64,000 nt of DNA from the NCBI RefSeq assembly GCF_000334215.1, contig NZ_AMQY01000011.1:1-64000 (forward strand), read 5' to 3'. The first letter of the stretch is position 1. Every line of letters starts with the position of its first letter. The DNA is from Vreelandella jeotgali Hwa (GTDB lineage Bacteria > Pseudomonadota > Gammaproteobacteria > Pseudomonadales > Halomonadaceae). This document shows positions 59,472 through 63,278 of the stretch, in pieces. The notes below the pieces were generated by a model. The model saw only the letters and a program-made list of their open reading frames with translations, did not search any database and was not told the DNA's origin. The position numbers and the translations under genes were made by a program.

Positions 59472-59825
59472 CTAACGCTCTCGGGGTTCGTCGTCCCTGA
59501 TGGAATAATGCCCTTCCAGGGTTTCGTGCGGCCCCGGCGGCTCACGGCGGGCATTGCCGCCGCCGATATCGGTGGCCTGGTGGGCGCGCGCCGCTTCCAT
59601 GCGCTTTTTCATGCGGTGGCGTAAAAACGGCATCATCGCCCAGCCGATGAGCAGCAGCACCAGCCCCAGCACCAGCGCTATTATCATCATGGCGCCAAAC
59701 AGCAGCCAGGTAAAAAACAGCTTGATACTGCTCGCCAGGCTGTCCGGGCGGGTTTGTGCCGCGCGGGCACGCCAGCGGTTGGCGGCCTGCCAGGCGGCAT
59801 TGCGCGAGTTGTGAGGATCGGGCAT
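59472..59825 (-). CDS. Uncharacterised small membrane protein
   Basis: A 117-residue protein with a soluble N terminus (MPDPHNSRNAAWQAANRWRA), one long or two short hydrophobic helices (LFFTWLLFGAMMIIALVLGLVLLLIGWAMMP region, about residues 35-65), a basic cytosolic loop (RHRMKKRME), and an acidic tail (YSIRDDEPRER). No family is recognised. The start at 59825 follows GGAG eight bases upstream; the longer ORF to 59927 has no support. It is convergent with the AEC gene with an 8-base gap. Confidence 0.7.
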   Translation of the reverse strand: MPDPHNSRNAAWQAANRWRARAAQTRPDSLASSIKLFFTWLLFGAMMIIALVLGLVLLLIGWAMMPFLRHRMKKRMEAARAHQATDIGGGNARREPPGPHETLEGHYSIRDDEPRER

Positions 59826-60049
59826 GAGGCGGTCTCCACGAGCGAATAACGGCTCGGTGTCGAGGGTTGATACCGTATTGGAACACAGCCGGCCGTTTGG
59901 GTTCAGCCGCGTGGGCGTGGCTGTCATTCCCGGATTTATATTCAGGTTCGCTTATGCGAACAGGCCGCTGAGCTGGTAGAGTCTGCACGGCGCCGGCCCG
60001 GCATTGTGTCCGGTCGACGACGAATCCAACGCGAGGTCAAGGAGACGAC

Positions 60050-61675
60050 ATGGCAAATCACGGCGGCAGGACGGTATTCATTGCCTCAACGGTGATTATT
60101 CTGGGGCTGGTCCTCGTCGGCGCCGCGTTCCCCGAGGCTTTTGGCCATGCGGCCCAGGCCGCGCTGGATAGCATTACCCGGCTGTTTGGCTGGTTTTATC
60201 TGTTTTCGGTATTCGGTTTCGTGGTGTTTTTGCTGGGGCTGGCGTTTTCCCGTTATGGCAAGGTGCGGCTGGGCCCCCAGGACAGCCGGCCCAACTACAG
60301 CTTTTTTTCCTGGGTGAGCATGCTGCTGGCGGCCGGCTTTGGCGTGGGGCTGGTGTTTTACGGCATGGCCGAGCCCATGTCGCACTTCATCGAGCCGCCC
60401 TACGGCGACCAGCAAGCGGGCACTACCGAAGCCGCGCGCCTGGCCATTCAGTACACCTACTTTAACTGGGGCATTCACCAGTGGGCGGCGTTTTCCGTCG
60501 TGGGGCTGATCATTGCCTACTTCCAGTTCCGCAAGGGCCAGGCGGGGCTGGTGTCGTCGGTGCTCTCTTCGGTGACCGCCAAATATCCCCGGGTGCGCCG
60601 CTACGCCTCCTGGCTGGACGTGTTCGCCGTCGTGGCCACGGTCATGGGCGTGGCCACATCGCTGGGGCTGGGTGTGCTGCAGATGAACGGCGGGCTCAAC
60701 GCGGTTTTCGGCCTGCCGGAAAACGGCTGGTGGCAGTTCGTGATTCTGCTGGTGATGTTCTGCGCCTACATGGCCTCAACCTGGTCGGGCCTCGACAAGG
60801 GCATCAAGCGTTTGTCCAACCTCAACATGGCGATGTGCATCCTCCTGATGCTGTACGTGCTGCTCTCGGGGCCCACCGTGGCGATTCTGGAAACCATCAC
60901 CCTGGGCATCGGCGACTACCTGCAGAACTTCATCAGCATGAGCCTGCGCATCGCGCCGTATACCGACACCAACTGGGGCAGCGACTGGACGATTTTCTAC
61001 TGGGCCTGGGTGATCGCCTGGTCGCCGTTTGTGGGCACCTTCGTGGCCCGGGTGTCGCGCGGGCGTACCATCAAGGAATACGTCTTCGGCGTGCTGCTGG
61101 TGCCGCCGCTGCTGGCCTGCCTGTGGATCGGCGTGTTCGGCGGCGCCGCGCTGCACATGGAGCTGGGCGGCGGCGATATCGGCCTGGCGCAGGCGACCCA
61201 GGACAACATCACCGTGGCGCTGTTTGAAATGTTCGACCTGATGCCGTTTTCCGGCCTGCTGTCGATCATGGCGATGCTGTTGATCTTCGTCTTTCTGGTG
61301 ACCTCGGCGGATTCGGCGTCGTACATTGTGGCGCAGATGACCGATAACGGCTCGATCAATCCGCCGCTGTACAAGCGCGTGCTCTGGGGCGTGCTGATCG
61401 CCGCGATCTGCCTGACGCTGATTGTCGCCGGCGGGCTGACCGGGCTGCAGTCGGCGGCGGTGCTGTCGGCGTTGCCGTTCACCTTCATTCTCTACATGAT
61501 GATCGTGGTGCTGCTGCGCGAACTGCGCGCCGACCGCAAGGCGATGCTGACTCAGCTGTACCGCCGCCACGGCGAAACGCCCGTGGGCGCCGATGCCTTC
61601 GAGGCCGATCAGCTGGGCGAGGAGGAGCGTCTGCGGCGTGCGCCCAGCGTGGTCAATCGGCGCATCAATCATTAA
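60050..61675 (+). CDS. BCCT family betaine/carnitine/choline transporter
   Basis: A 541-residue carrier with 12 transmembrane segments. It has LAAGFGVGLVFYGMAEPMSH (about residues 93-112) and the BCCT signature WTIFYWAWVIAWSPFVGTFV followed by ARVSRGRTIKEY (about 322-354). It imports quaternary ammonium osmolytes, driven by Na+ or H+. The short charged C-terminal tail could sense osmolality, but is shorter than that of BetP. A 53-residue membrane protein gene starts two bases after the stop. ATG 60050 follows AAGGAGACG. Confidence 0.93.
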   Translation: MANHGGRTVFIASTVIILGLVLVGAAFPEAFGHAAQAALDSITRLFGWFYLFSVFGFVVFLLGLAFSRYGKVRLGPQDSRPNYSFFSWVSMLLAAGFGVGLVFYGMAEPMSHFIEPPYGDQQAGTTEAARLAIQYTYFNWGIHQWAAFSVVGLIIAYFQFRKGQAGLVSSVLSSVTAKYPRVRRYASWLDVFAVVATVMGVATSLGLGVLQMNGGLNAVFGLPENGWWQFVILLVMFCAYMASTWSGLDKGIKRLSNLNMAMCILLMLYVLLSGPTVAILETITLGIGDYLQNFISMSLRIAPYTDTNWGSDWTIFYWAWVIAWSPFVGTFVARVSRGRTIKEYVFGVLLVPPLLACLWIGVFGGAALHMELGGGDIGLAQATQDNITVALFEMFDLMPFSGLLSIMAMLLIFVFLVTSADSASYIVAQMTDNGSINPPLYKRVLWGVLIAAICLTLIVAGGLTGLQSAAVLSALPFTFILYMMIVVLLRELRADRKAMLTQLYRRHGETPVGADAFEADQLGEEERLRRAPSVVNRRINH

Positions 61676-61677
61676 CT

Positions 61678-61839
61678 ATGGCAAGATACTCACGCCGTGG
61701 CGCAACCCGCCAACCGTCCACCCGCGATGCCGCCAACGGCAACCGGTTTGACCGCTGGCTGAACGCGGCGGTGTCGTTGGCCGTGGTGATTGCGATGACG
61801 GTGGGAGCGGCGGCCGTGCTTGCGCACTGGCTGCTGTAG
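61678..61839 (+). CDS. 53-residue single-pass membrane protein behind the BCCT carrier
   Basis: The ORF starts two bases after the BCCT stop codon and is too short for standard size cut-offs. A basic, polar N terminus (MARYSRRGATRQPSTRDAAN) is followed by one transmembrane helix (LNAAVSLAVVIAMTVGAAAV, about residues 29-48) and a short end HWLL. The high-GC codon use matches the neighbours. Translation would depend on coupling to the BCCT gene, since no independent ribosome-binding site is obvious. The position suggests a small accessory or regulatory subunit of the carrier; no family is recognised. Confidence 0.65.
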   Translation: MARYSRRGATRQPSTRDAANGNRFDRWLNAAVSLAVVIAMTVGAAAVLAHWLL

Positions 61840-61904: not shown

Positions 61905-63278
61905 ATGCCGTCCGAATCGTCCCGTCGCGACCCCGCTCAGGCCCCGCCGTCGGCATACGCCTCGCGCCGGGAAATTCTCGGCTGGGCGATGTTCGATTTC
62001 GCCAATCAGGCCTATACGCTGCTGATTATCACCGTGGTATTCGGCGAGCTGTTTACCACGGTGATTGTCGGCGAGCATCACGGCAGCTACCGGCTGGCCA
62101 ACTTTCTCTGGAGTCTGGCGCTGGCCATCAGCTATCTGATGGTGGTGGTCACGGCGCCGCTGTGCGGGGCGGTCATGGACGGTCGTGCCGCCAAGAAGCG
62201 CTTTCTGTGGTGGAGCTATCTGGCCACGGTGGCGTCGACCGCGATGCTCTACTTTGTCGCGCCGGGATACGTGGCGCTGGGCTTCGTGCTGATTATTGTC
62301 TCCAACTATGCCTATTCCATGGGCGAGTCGTTTATCGCGGCGTTTCTCCCCGAGCTGGGGCCGCCGTCGGCGCTGGGGCGGATTTCCGGCTTCGGCTGGG
62401 CGCTGGGGTACATCGGCGGGCTGTTCGCCGCCGGCTTTACTCTGGTGGTGCTGGGCGAGGCCACCGCCGACAACTTTTCGCGTATCCGCTTTGTGGGGCC
62501 GTTTGCCGCCGGGTTTTTCCTGCTGGCGGCGCTGCCGACCTTTGCCTGGCTGAAAGAGCGCGGTACCCCCCGGGCGGTGAATGAGCCCTACCGCCGCATT
62601 GCCCGCCGGCGCCTGATGGTAACGCTGCGCGACCTGCGCCACTTTCAGGACCTGAGCCGGTTTCTGGTCTCGCTGCTGTTTTCCATGGCCGGCGTTTACA
62701 TTGTGATCGCCTTTGCCTTTATCTATGGCGGCCAGGTCATCGGCTGGGACGCCGGGGTGCGCAACATCATGTTTATTATCGTACAGCTGACCGCGGCGGC
62801 GGGGGCGCTGGGCTTCGGCGCGCTCCAGGACCGCCTGGGCGCAAAGTTTACCTACCAGATGACGCTGGTGCTGTGGGTCGCCTCCATTGTGGCGATCTGG
62901 GCCACGCCGACGCTGACCGCATGGGTCAACGCGCAGCTGGGCTGGCACTGGCAGGCGCAGTACCTGTTTCTGGTGGTAGGCTGTCTGGCAGGGTTGAGCC
63001 TGGGCTCCAGCCAGTCGGCCAGCCGGGCGCTGGTGGGGCTGTTTTCACCGGCGGGCAAGGCGGCCGAGTTTTTCGGCTTCTGGGGGCTGGCCAACAAGCT
63101 GGCCGGCGTTTTCGGCATTGTGCTGCTGGGGTTGCTTCAGGCCCTGATCGGGCTGGCGGCCTCCATCCTGCTGTGTGCGGGGCTGTTCATGGCGGCGATG
63201 CTGATTTGTGCCCGGGTGAATGAGACCCGGGGGCGTGCCGCGGCCTGCCGGTGGCAGCCGGCGGCGGACGGCACTTAG
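61905..63278 (+). CDS. MFS transporter (UMF1/Atg22-like)
   Basis: A 457-residue membrane protein with about 12 hydrophobic segments. The segment EILGWAMFDFANQAYTLLII (about residues 23-42) and LPELGPPSALGRISGFGWAL followed by GYIGGL are typical of the UMF1/Atg22-like branch of the major facilitator superfamily, often annotated as amino-acid or unknown-solute exporters. The substrate is unknown. The start at 61905 follows an ACCGGAAACTGCC stretch with weak GGAA. It ends 8 bases before the protease gene. Confidence 0.85.
   Translation: MPSESSRRDPAQAPPSAYASRREILGWAMFDFANQAYTLLIITVVFGELFTTVIVGEHHGSYRLANFLWSLALAISYLMVVVTAPLCGAVMDGRAAKKRFLWWSYLATVASTAMLYFVAPGYVALGFVLIIVSNYAYSMGESFIAAFLPELGPPSALGRISGFGWALGYIGGLFAAGFTLVVLGEATADNFSRIRFVGPFAAGFFLLAALPTFAWLKERGTPRAVNEPYRRIARRRLMVTLRDLRHFQDLSRFLVSLLFSMAGVYIVIAFAFIYGGQVIGWDAGVRNIMFIIVQLTAAAGALGFGALQDRLGAKFTYQMTLVLWVASIVAIWATPTLTAWVNAQLGWHWQAQYLFLVVGCLAGLSLGSSQSASRALVGLFSPAGKAAEFFGFWGLANKLAGVFGIVLLGLLQALIGLAASILLCAGLFMAAMLICARVNETRGRAAACRWQPAADGT

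Follow-up and report, generated by a model that had tools for sequence, protein, structure and literature searches.

The window analysed here, a stretch of 64,000 nucleotides from Vreelandella jeotgali Hwa (contig NZ_AMQY01000011.1), carries near its 3' end an open reading frame (ORF) of 53 codons that begins with an ATG at position 61678 and ends with a TAG at 61837-61839. The BCCT ORF upstream stops with a TAA at 61673-61675, so that two bases (CT) precede the ATG of the small ORF. The locus comprises the following features:

60050..61675, + strand: gene for a BCCT family transporter, 541 aa (PF02028, E 5.4e-176), a frequent but not constant upstream neighbour of the small gene
61676..61677, + strand: gap of 2 bases (CT) separating the small ORF from the BCCT gene; the 97 other entries read have 15-300 bases here
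61678..61839, + strand: gene for the GATRR-DRWL small membrane protein, 53 aa (translation and homologue searches)
61699..61713, + strand: residues 8-12, GATRQ (GATRR in the family), the N-terminal signature (alignment of 123 distinct sequences)
61750..61761, + strand: residues 25-28, DRWL, ahead of the hydrophobic stretch (alignment of 123 distinct sequences)
61762..61836, + strand: predicted single transmembrane helix with a conserved face of V32, A35/V36, A39, G43 and A46 (hydropathy, conservation period and structural model)

The upstream protein also matched TIGR00842 above the cut-off and NF047988 below that model's own cut-off, and a Pfam search identified the product of the downstream gene (61905-63278) as an MFS/Atg22-like transporter. 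The original prediction of a 53-residue, one-helix protein encoded two bases past the BCCT stop was borne out by coordinates, hydropathy and an AlphaFold2 model, and its remark that the codon use is that of the surroundings held roughly: judged by GC content at codon positions 1/2/3, the small gene (0.66/0.58/0.79) is flatter than the BCCT gene (0.60/0.43/0.87) and the next gene (0.63/0.49/0.84).

Hydropathy analysis gave a best 19-residue mean of 2.41 for the segments beginning at residues 30 and 31, and the first 28 residues contain 7 K/R versus 2 D/E. Because of the positive-inside rule, the N-terminus is presumably cytoplasmic. The AlphaFold2 model, made with 23 sequences from the window and the named genomes, consists of one helix spanning residues 15-52 (mean pLDDT 80.8), with mean pLDDT values of 89, 98 and 96 for residues 21-30, 31-40 and 41-50 and of about 60 for residues 1-20. 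Taking such proteins to have about 60 residues or fewer and one hydrophobic helix, the product is a small single-pass membrane protein. The family signature runs from RxGATRR through DRWL(N/D) to the single transmembrane helix, and among the 123 distinct sequences G8, A9, W27, L28 and A39 are invariant (123/123), T10, D25, V32, V36 and A46 are present in at least 95% and G43 in 94%. Across residues 28-51 of these sequences conservation is periodic at 100 degrees, as for an α-helix (moment of 10.6, whereas no other listed angle between 60 and 180 degrees, in steps of 10, exceeds 6.2). When positions, not lineages, were shuffled, the 100-degree signal was matched by 1 of 5000 permutations for the 123 sequences, by 2 of 5000 for the 37 diverse rows of our broader profile (A2) and by 11 of 5000 for the 36 rows without an adjacent BCCT gene alone; these 36 rows retain A39 (36/36), A46 (35/36) and G43 (29/36). 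One face of the helix is thus conserved, a pattern that packing against another helix would produce and that suggests such a contact through this face, in which case the packing partner would be protein rather than lipid.

None of the models of Pfam, NCBIfam and PHROGs fits the small protein. The window's protein matched none of the Pfam or NCBIfam families at the cut-off, and 37 members compared with both libraries returned single weak matches only, the best with an E-value of 0.007 and none common to two members. A search of solved structures returned two matches only, to photosystem I subunit XII (PsaM) at E-values of 0.85-0.97, a likeness that we read as chance. Among six weak profile matches in the g42 genomes, one (G113, locus L144) is a DUF2970 protein (PF11174), which differs from the family in that it lacks GATRR and DRWL and in that its match spans model positions 32-56 only; the other five fall in the same half of the model. 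In the full-text literature on small membrane proteins of Halomonas and the Halomonadaceae and on BCCT accessory subunits we found no report of such a protein. The one match for "small membrane protein" in PMC9006882 is a reference about PMP3, and the passages considered from this paper and from PMC10710835 treat other proteins. The family is thus one for which we found no existing description, one-helix membrane proteins as a kind being already known.

Relatives with the same BCCT gene do not lack a conserved ORF at this position, the outcome that the original prediction had named as its refutation: all 61 genomes of the genus among 97 relatives gave a match at 1.8e-8 or better in a search with the single sequence, which matches itself at 1.3e-30, so that chance similarity is far exceeded. 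Across the window's family the single-sequence search recovered 209 of 275 genomes (E 0.001), among them all 82 of the genus. Profile A1, applied to 65 of the 66 misses with the best 99 first-look candidates scored per genome, added 14 further members and a broken frame in G192, which was scored as lacking an intact gene; four of its 25 matches (G213, G259, G112 and G117, whose frames run to 331-725 residues and in one case contain a stop) were left out, and the last of the 66 misses, G310, gave no match. Profile A2, applied to the 50 remaining genomes with the best 121 candidates scored, added seven more, namely all seven g53 genomes, which have a divergent member; the six g42 matches to this profile, which cover the helix half only, were left out, and G259 was counted afterwards through a different match found with A2. 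Members were thus counted in 230 of the 275 genomes, a total of genomes with a counted match of which not all are proven intact, since for example G054 (L009/L034, also a row of profile A1) has a frame without a start codon. The named carriers (73 loci) are species of Vreelandella, Halomonas, Halovibrio and Billgrantia, and from their record titles we infer that the family is Halomonadaceae; several genomes are entered twice in our locus sets, for example as L033 and L153. Among 390 genomes of the order searched with A2 (best 16 first-look candidates scored per genome), no convincing member was found outside the family. Seventeen extra-family matches appeared at E-values of 5.6e-5 to 0.0075, of which 14 lie in frames of at least 195 residues; the short-frame matches in G617, G529 and G478 were rejected as chance, none of them uniting GATRR, DRWL and a hydrophobic helix. 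We confirm that the ORF encodes a real protein.

The original prediction also cast this protein as a partner of the BCCT carrier. The part that stood is a conserved one-helix protein often encoded beside a BCCT gene; the partnership itself is opposed by the genome counts that follow. BCCT sequence lies directly upstream of the small gene in 61 of the 73 named loci, some of it in pieces and that of L202 a remnant only, and 12 loci have none. Adjacency at this frequency would be unneeded for a wholly unrelated pair and counts against independence. An orthologue of the BCCT gene is present somewhere in 180 of the 275 family genomes (E 1e-150), and with genomes taken as independent the small gene occurs in 154 of these 180 versus 76 of the 95 without it, the 95 including frame-broken BCCTs (Fisher odds ratio 1.48, p = 0.24). 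The small gene does not, then, clearly accompany the BCCT gene and vanish with it as a dedicated accessory should, and genome content gives no support to the BCCT as an obligatory partner. The two-base spacing, offered as a sign of coupling, is found at no other locus read: the gap is 15-300 bases in the 97 other entries (at one entry with 15, the small gene is broken) and -59 in two entries of one genome's BCCT remnant.

A search for BCCTs, run alongside two positive controls, covered 21 genomes that have the small gene and no intact adjacent BCCT gene. All 21 have other BCCTs elsewhere; G132 has a relative of 70% identity, and the remaining 20 have no closer full BCCT than a paralogue of at most 43% identity (G057 has an adjacent remnant as well). 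Loci without the BCCT orthologue had no BCCT of any kind beside the small gene within flanks of 3-4.5 kb. Conversely, 26 genomes have this BCCT (69-86% identity) and no small gene was found in them; they come from 50 genomes scored as without the small gene, among which the seven g53 genomes were reassigned later, and all 50 have at least one BCCT. Within 1200 bases downstream of the BCCT gene at these 26 loci (116 bases only at L093), no forward frame proved to be a member in an A1 search at maximal sensitivity (best E 0.56), and the same genomes searched whole with A2 yielded nothing but the helix-half matches of g42.

Some BCCT regions beside the small gene are irregular. The small gene of Vreelandella aquamarina MB598 (L048/L202) has beside it a remnant of a BCCT, covering about residues 463-540 at 78%, together with further pieces. 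At the Billgrantia lactosivorans locus (L057/L220), a stop-free frame of 637 codons in L057, on the BCCT strand and out of the BCCT frame, enters the small gene. The BCCT is split across several frames in L034/L161 (Halomonas sulfidaeris) and L047/L183 (Vreelandella olivaria), by sequencing error or decay.

Trees of neighbouring genes indicated that the BCCT state has changed repeatedly. It switches at least six times in the MFS-neighbour tree, where 15 of 44 rows have no full BCCT, and at least five times in a tree built from an LLM-class oxidoreductase encoded nearby, where 28 of 59 rows have none; both are quick trees that contain the small gene in every row by construction and some genomes twice, score the frame-broken BCCT of L086 as absent and do not separate gain from loss. 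The only direct sign of BCCT loss is the remnant in G057. Selection on the small gene was compared after identical DNA, L139 and any rows of odd length or containing N had been taken out, which left 123 of 142 rows. The median dN/dS was 0.38 for 1332 pairs with an adjacent BCCT versus 0.49 for 349 pairs with none adjacent, these being non-independent pairs with synonymous differences of 0.05-0.65 only. Values are mostly below 1 with or without BCCT, some pairs reaching 1.1, and the higher median without BCCT could reflect some relaxation. Because the presence of the small gene shows no clear link to the BCCT gene, because some genomes have the BCCT only and because the BCCT state changes, these comparisons argue against a dedicated BCCT partner, and the small protein is probably not the adjacent BCCT's own.

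Other neighbours were weighed as partners as well. A frame for a protein of 151 aa at 59472-59927 on the - strand has a hydrophobic stretch by eye and no Pfam or NCBIfam match, and its product was present in 48 of the 62 family genomes tried, often near the small gene; since it is also found in genomes without the small gene (for example 7/7 g46 and 4/4 g42), it is not specific, and we rejected it. Outside the window's genus, a divergent LLM-class oxidoreductase of the MsnO8 type is a frequent neighbour of the small gene; we take this enzyme to be soluble, as its family is, and hence regard it as a positional neighbour. The downstream neighbours of the small gene vary between loci.

The region directly upstream of the small gene held a second recurrent element. 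Loci were classed as Vreelandella-type by AHW or AHL at the C-terminus. At 47 of 57 distinct loci of this type the small gene's start codon is overlapped by the stop of a short ORF, as TAATG, TGATG or ATGA (e.g. L048, L033 and L049), and at 46 of the 57 the short ORF has its ATG at -17 and 5 or 6 codons. Identical upstream sequences and the window's own locus had been removed for this count, leaving 57 Vreelandella-type and 62 other loci; the loci are related, so the 47 short ORFs are not independent events. Such an ORF occurred in 3.8% of shuffled sequences and at 2 of the 62 loci from other genera. In 44 of the 47 cases the short ORF follows a stretch that resembles, by a loose definition, a Shine-Dalgarno sequence. 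BCCT-less loci also have the -17 short ORF (L033, L035, L042, L045, L182 and L184). The encoded peptide differs between loci (MERGC, METAC, MKGND and others, the last codon often Cys), and this variation makes a role in translation more probable than one for the peptide itself. The spacer with the short ORF is missing from the window, where the BCCT stop lies two bases ahead of the start. Of the nearest relatives compared, L031 and L032 have no short ORF and L179 has one at -23; the loss is thus not confined to the window. At non-Vreelandella loci such as L053, L059 and L067 we noted by eye a GTAAGCTC-like string about 30-45 bases upstream of the small gene, which occurs with and without a BCCT gene between the string and the LLM gene and is possibly part of the small gene's leader or promoter.

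Judging from these sequence comparisons, we think it probable that the ORF belongs to an autonomous family of Halomonadaceae membrane proteins with a single helix, whose partner is not this BCCT. The small-residue face (A39, G43 and A46) would pack on a helix supplied by a second copy or by a different membrane protein, the GATRR segment may contact a cytoplasmic domain or acidic head groups, and the partner would be a component that these bacteria share, not this BCCT. Translation of the small gene in Vreelandella would probably proceed by termination-reinitiation from the short ORF, which would have its own Shine-Dalgarno sequence, and in the window's genome the BCCT stop would stand near the usual position of the missing short ORF's stop. 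More tentatively, and as a possibility only, the protein might be a lineage-wide one-helix subunit of a core Halomonadaceae membrane complex, recognised through GATRR and the helix face, the synthesis of which in Vreelandella is metered by the reinitiation ORF of 5-6 codons, a control that in this genome would have given way to direct coupling with the BCCT stop.

If the protein were a subunit or modulator dedicated to the neighbouring BCCT carrier, with a putative effect on binding or uptake as first proposed, this would account for the same-strand BCCT sequence directly upstream at 61 of the 73 named loci (a remnant in one case) and for the two-base spacing in the window. Such a role is difficult to reconcile with a small gene that is present in 76 of the 95 genomes without the orthologue and missing from 26 of the 180 with it, that without an adjacent BCCT keeps its helix face and a dN/dS mostly below 1, and that persists beside the BCCT remnant in G057, and we hold this explanation to be very unlikely. 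Loss of the adjacent BCCT would leave the target in place if the protein modulated other or several BCCT paralogues, or other osmolyte carriers, and both the BCCTs found elsewhere in 21 of 21 genomes without an intact adjacent copy and the halophilic nature of the carrier organisms are consistent with this. Yet BCCTs as such do not predict the small gene, since all 50 genomes then scored as lacking it have at least one, and no BCCT stands beside it at orthologue-less loci (3-4.5 kb flanks), so that we consider such a modulator unlikely.

The conservation of A39-xxx-G43 and A46 on a single helix face, along with the varied downstream neighbours, would also suit a homo-oligomer that acts alone through small-xxx-small packing, for instance as a component of the envelope stress response or as a peptide that shapes the membrane or resembles a pore; the nearly invariant N-terminal GATRR instead suggests a second contact, and we rate this explanation as quite unlikely. 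That the ORF is non-coding or spurious, as its shortness and the absence of a model from the libraries searched might be taken to indicate, is hardly conceivable given a protein signature in 230 of 275 genomes, dN/dS values mostly below 1 and a helical period of conservation.

For the favoured autonomous family, the most likely reading by analogy is that the small protein would work like the one-helix regulators AcrZ or MgtS, with no claim to membership in their families. As described in passages of PMC10710835, AcrZ has 49 aa and binds AcrB, and MgtS, MgtU and MgtR (28-31 aa) stabilise, inhibit or direct the turnover of transporters. By its description, AcrZ resembles the small protein as a one-helix membrane microprotein of similar length that packs along the helices of another membrane protein, but its partner is an RND pump; the three Mgt proteins, likewise compared by description, are small proteins that act on transporters but are shorter and tied mainly to Mg2+ homeostasis. 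To our knowledge, AcrZ has no GATRR-like segment.

Bacteria of the Halomonadaceae type are used for ectoine and PHB production, and to this group an unnamed and strongly conserved protein family is added here. GATRR, DRWL and A39/G43/A46 provide concrete residues for mutation. The locus also illustrates how two genes that lie side by side in a single genome, with hardly a gap between them, can hint at a partnership that whole-genome comparison fails to support.
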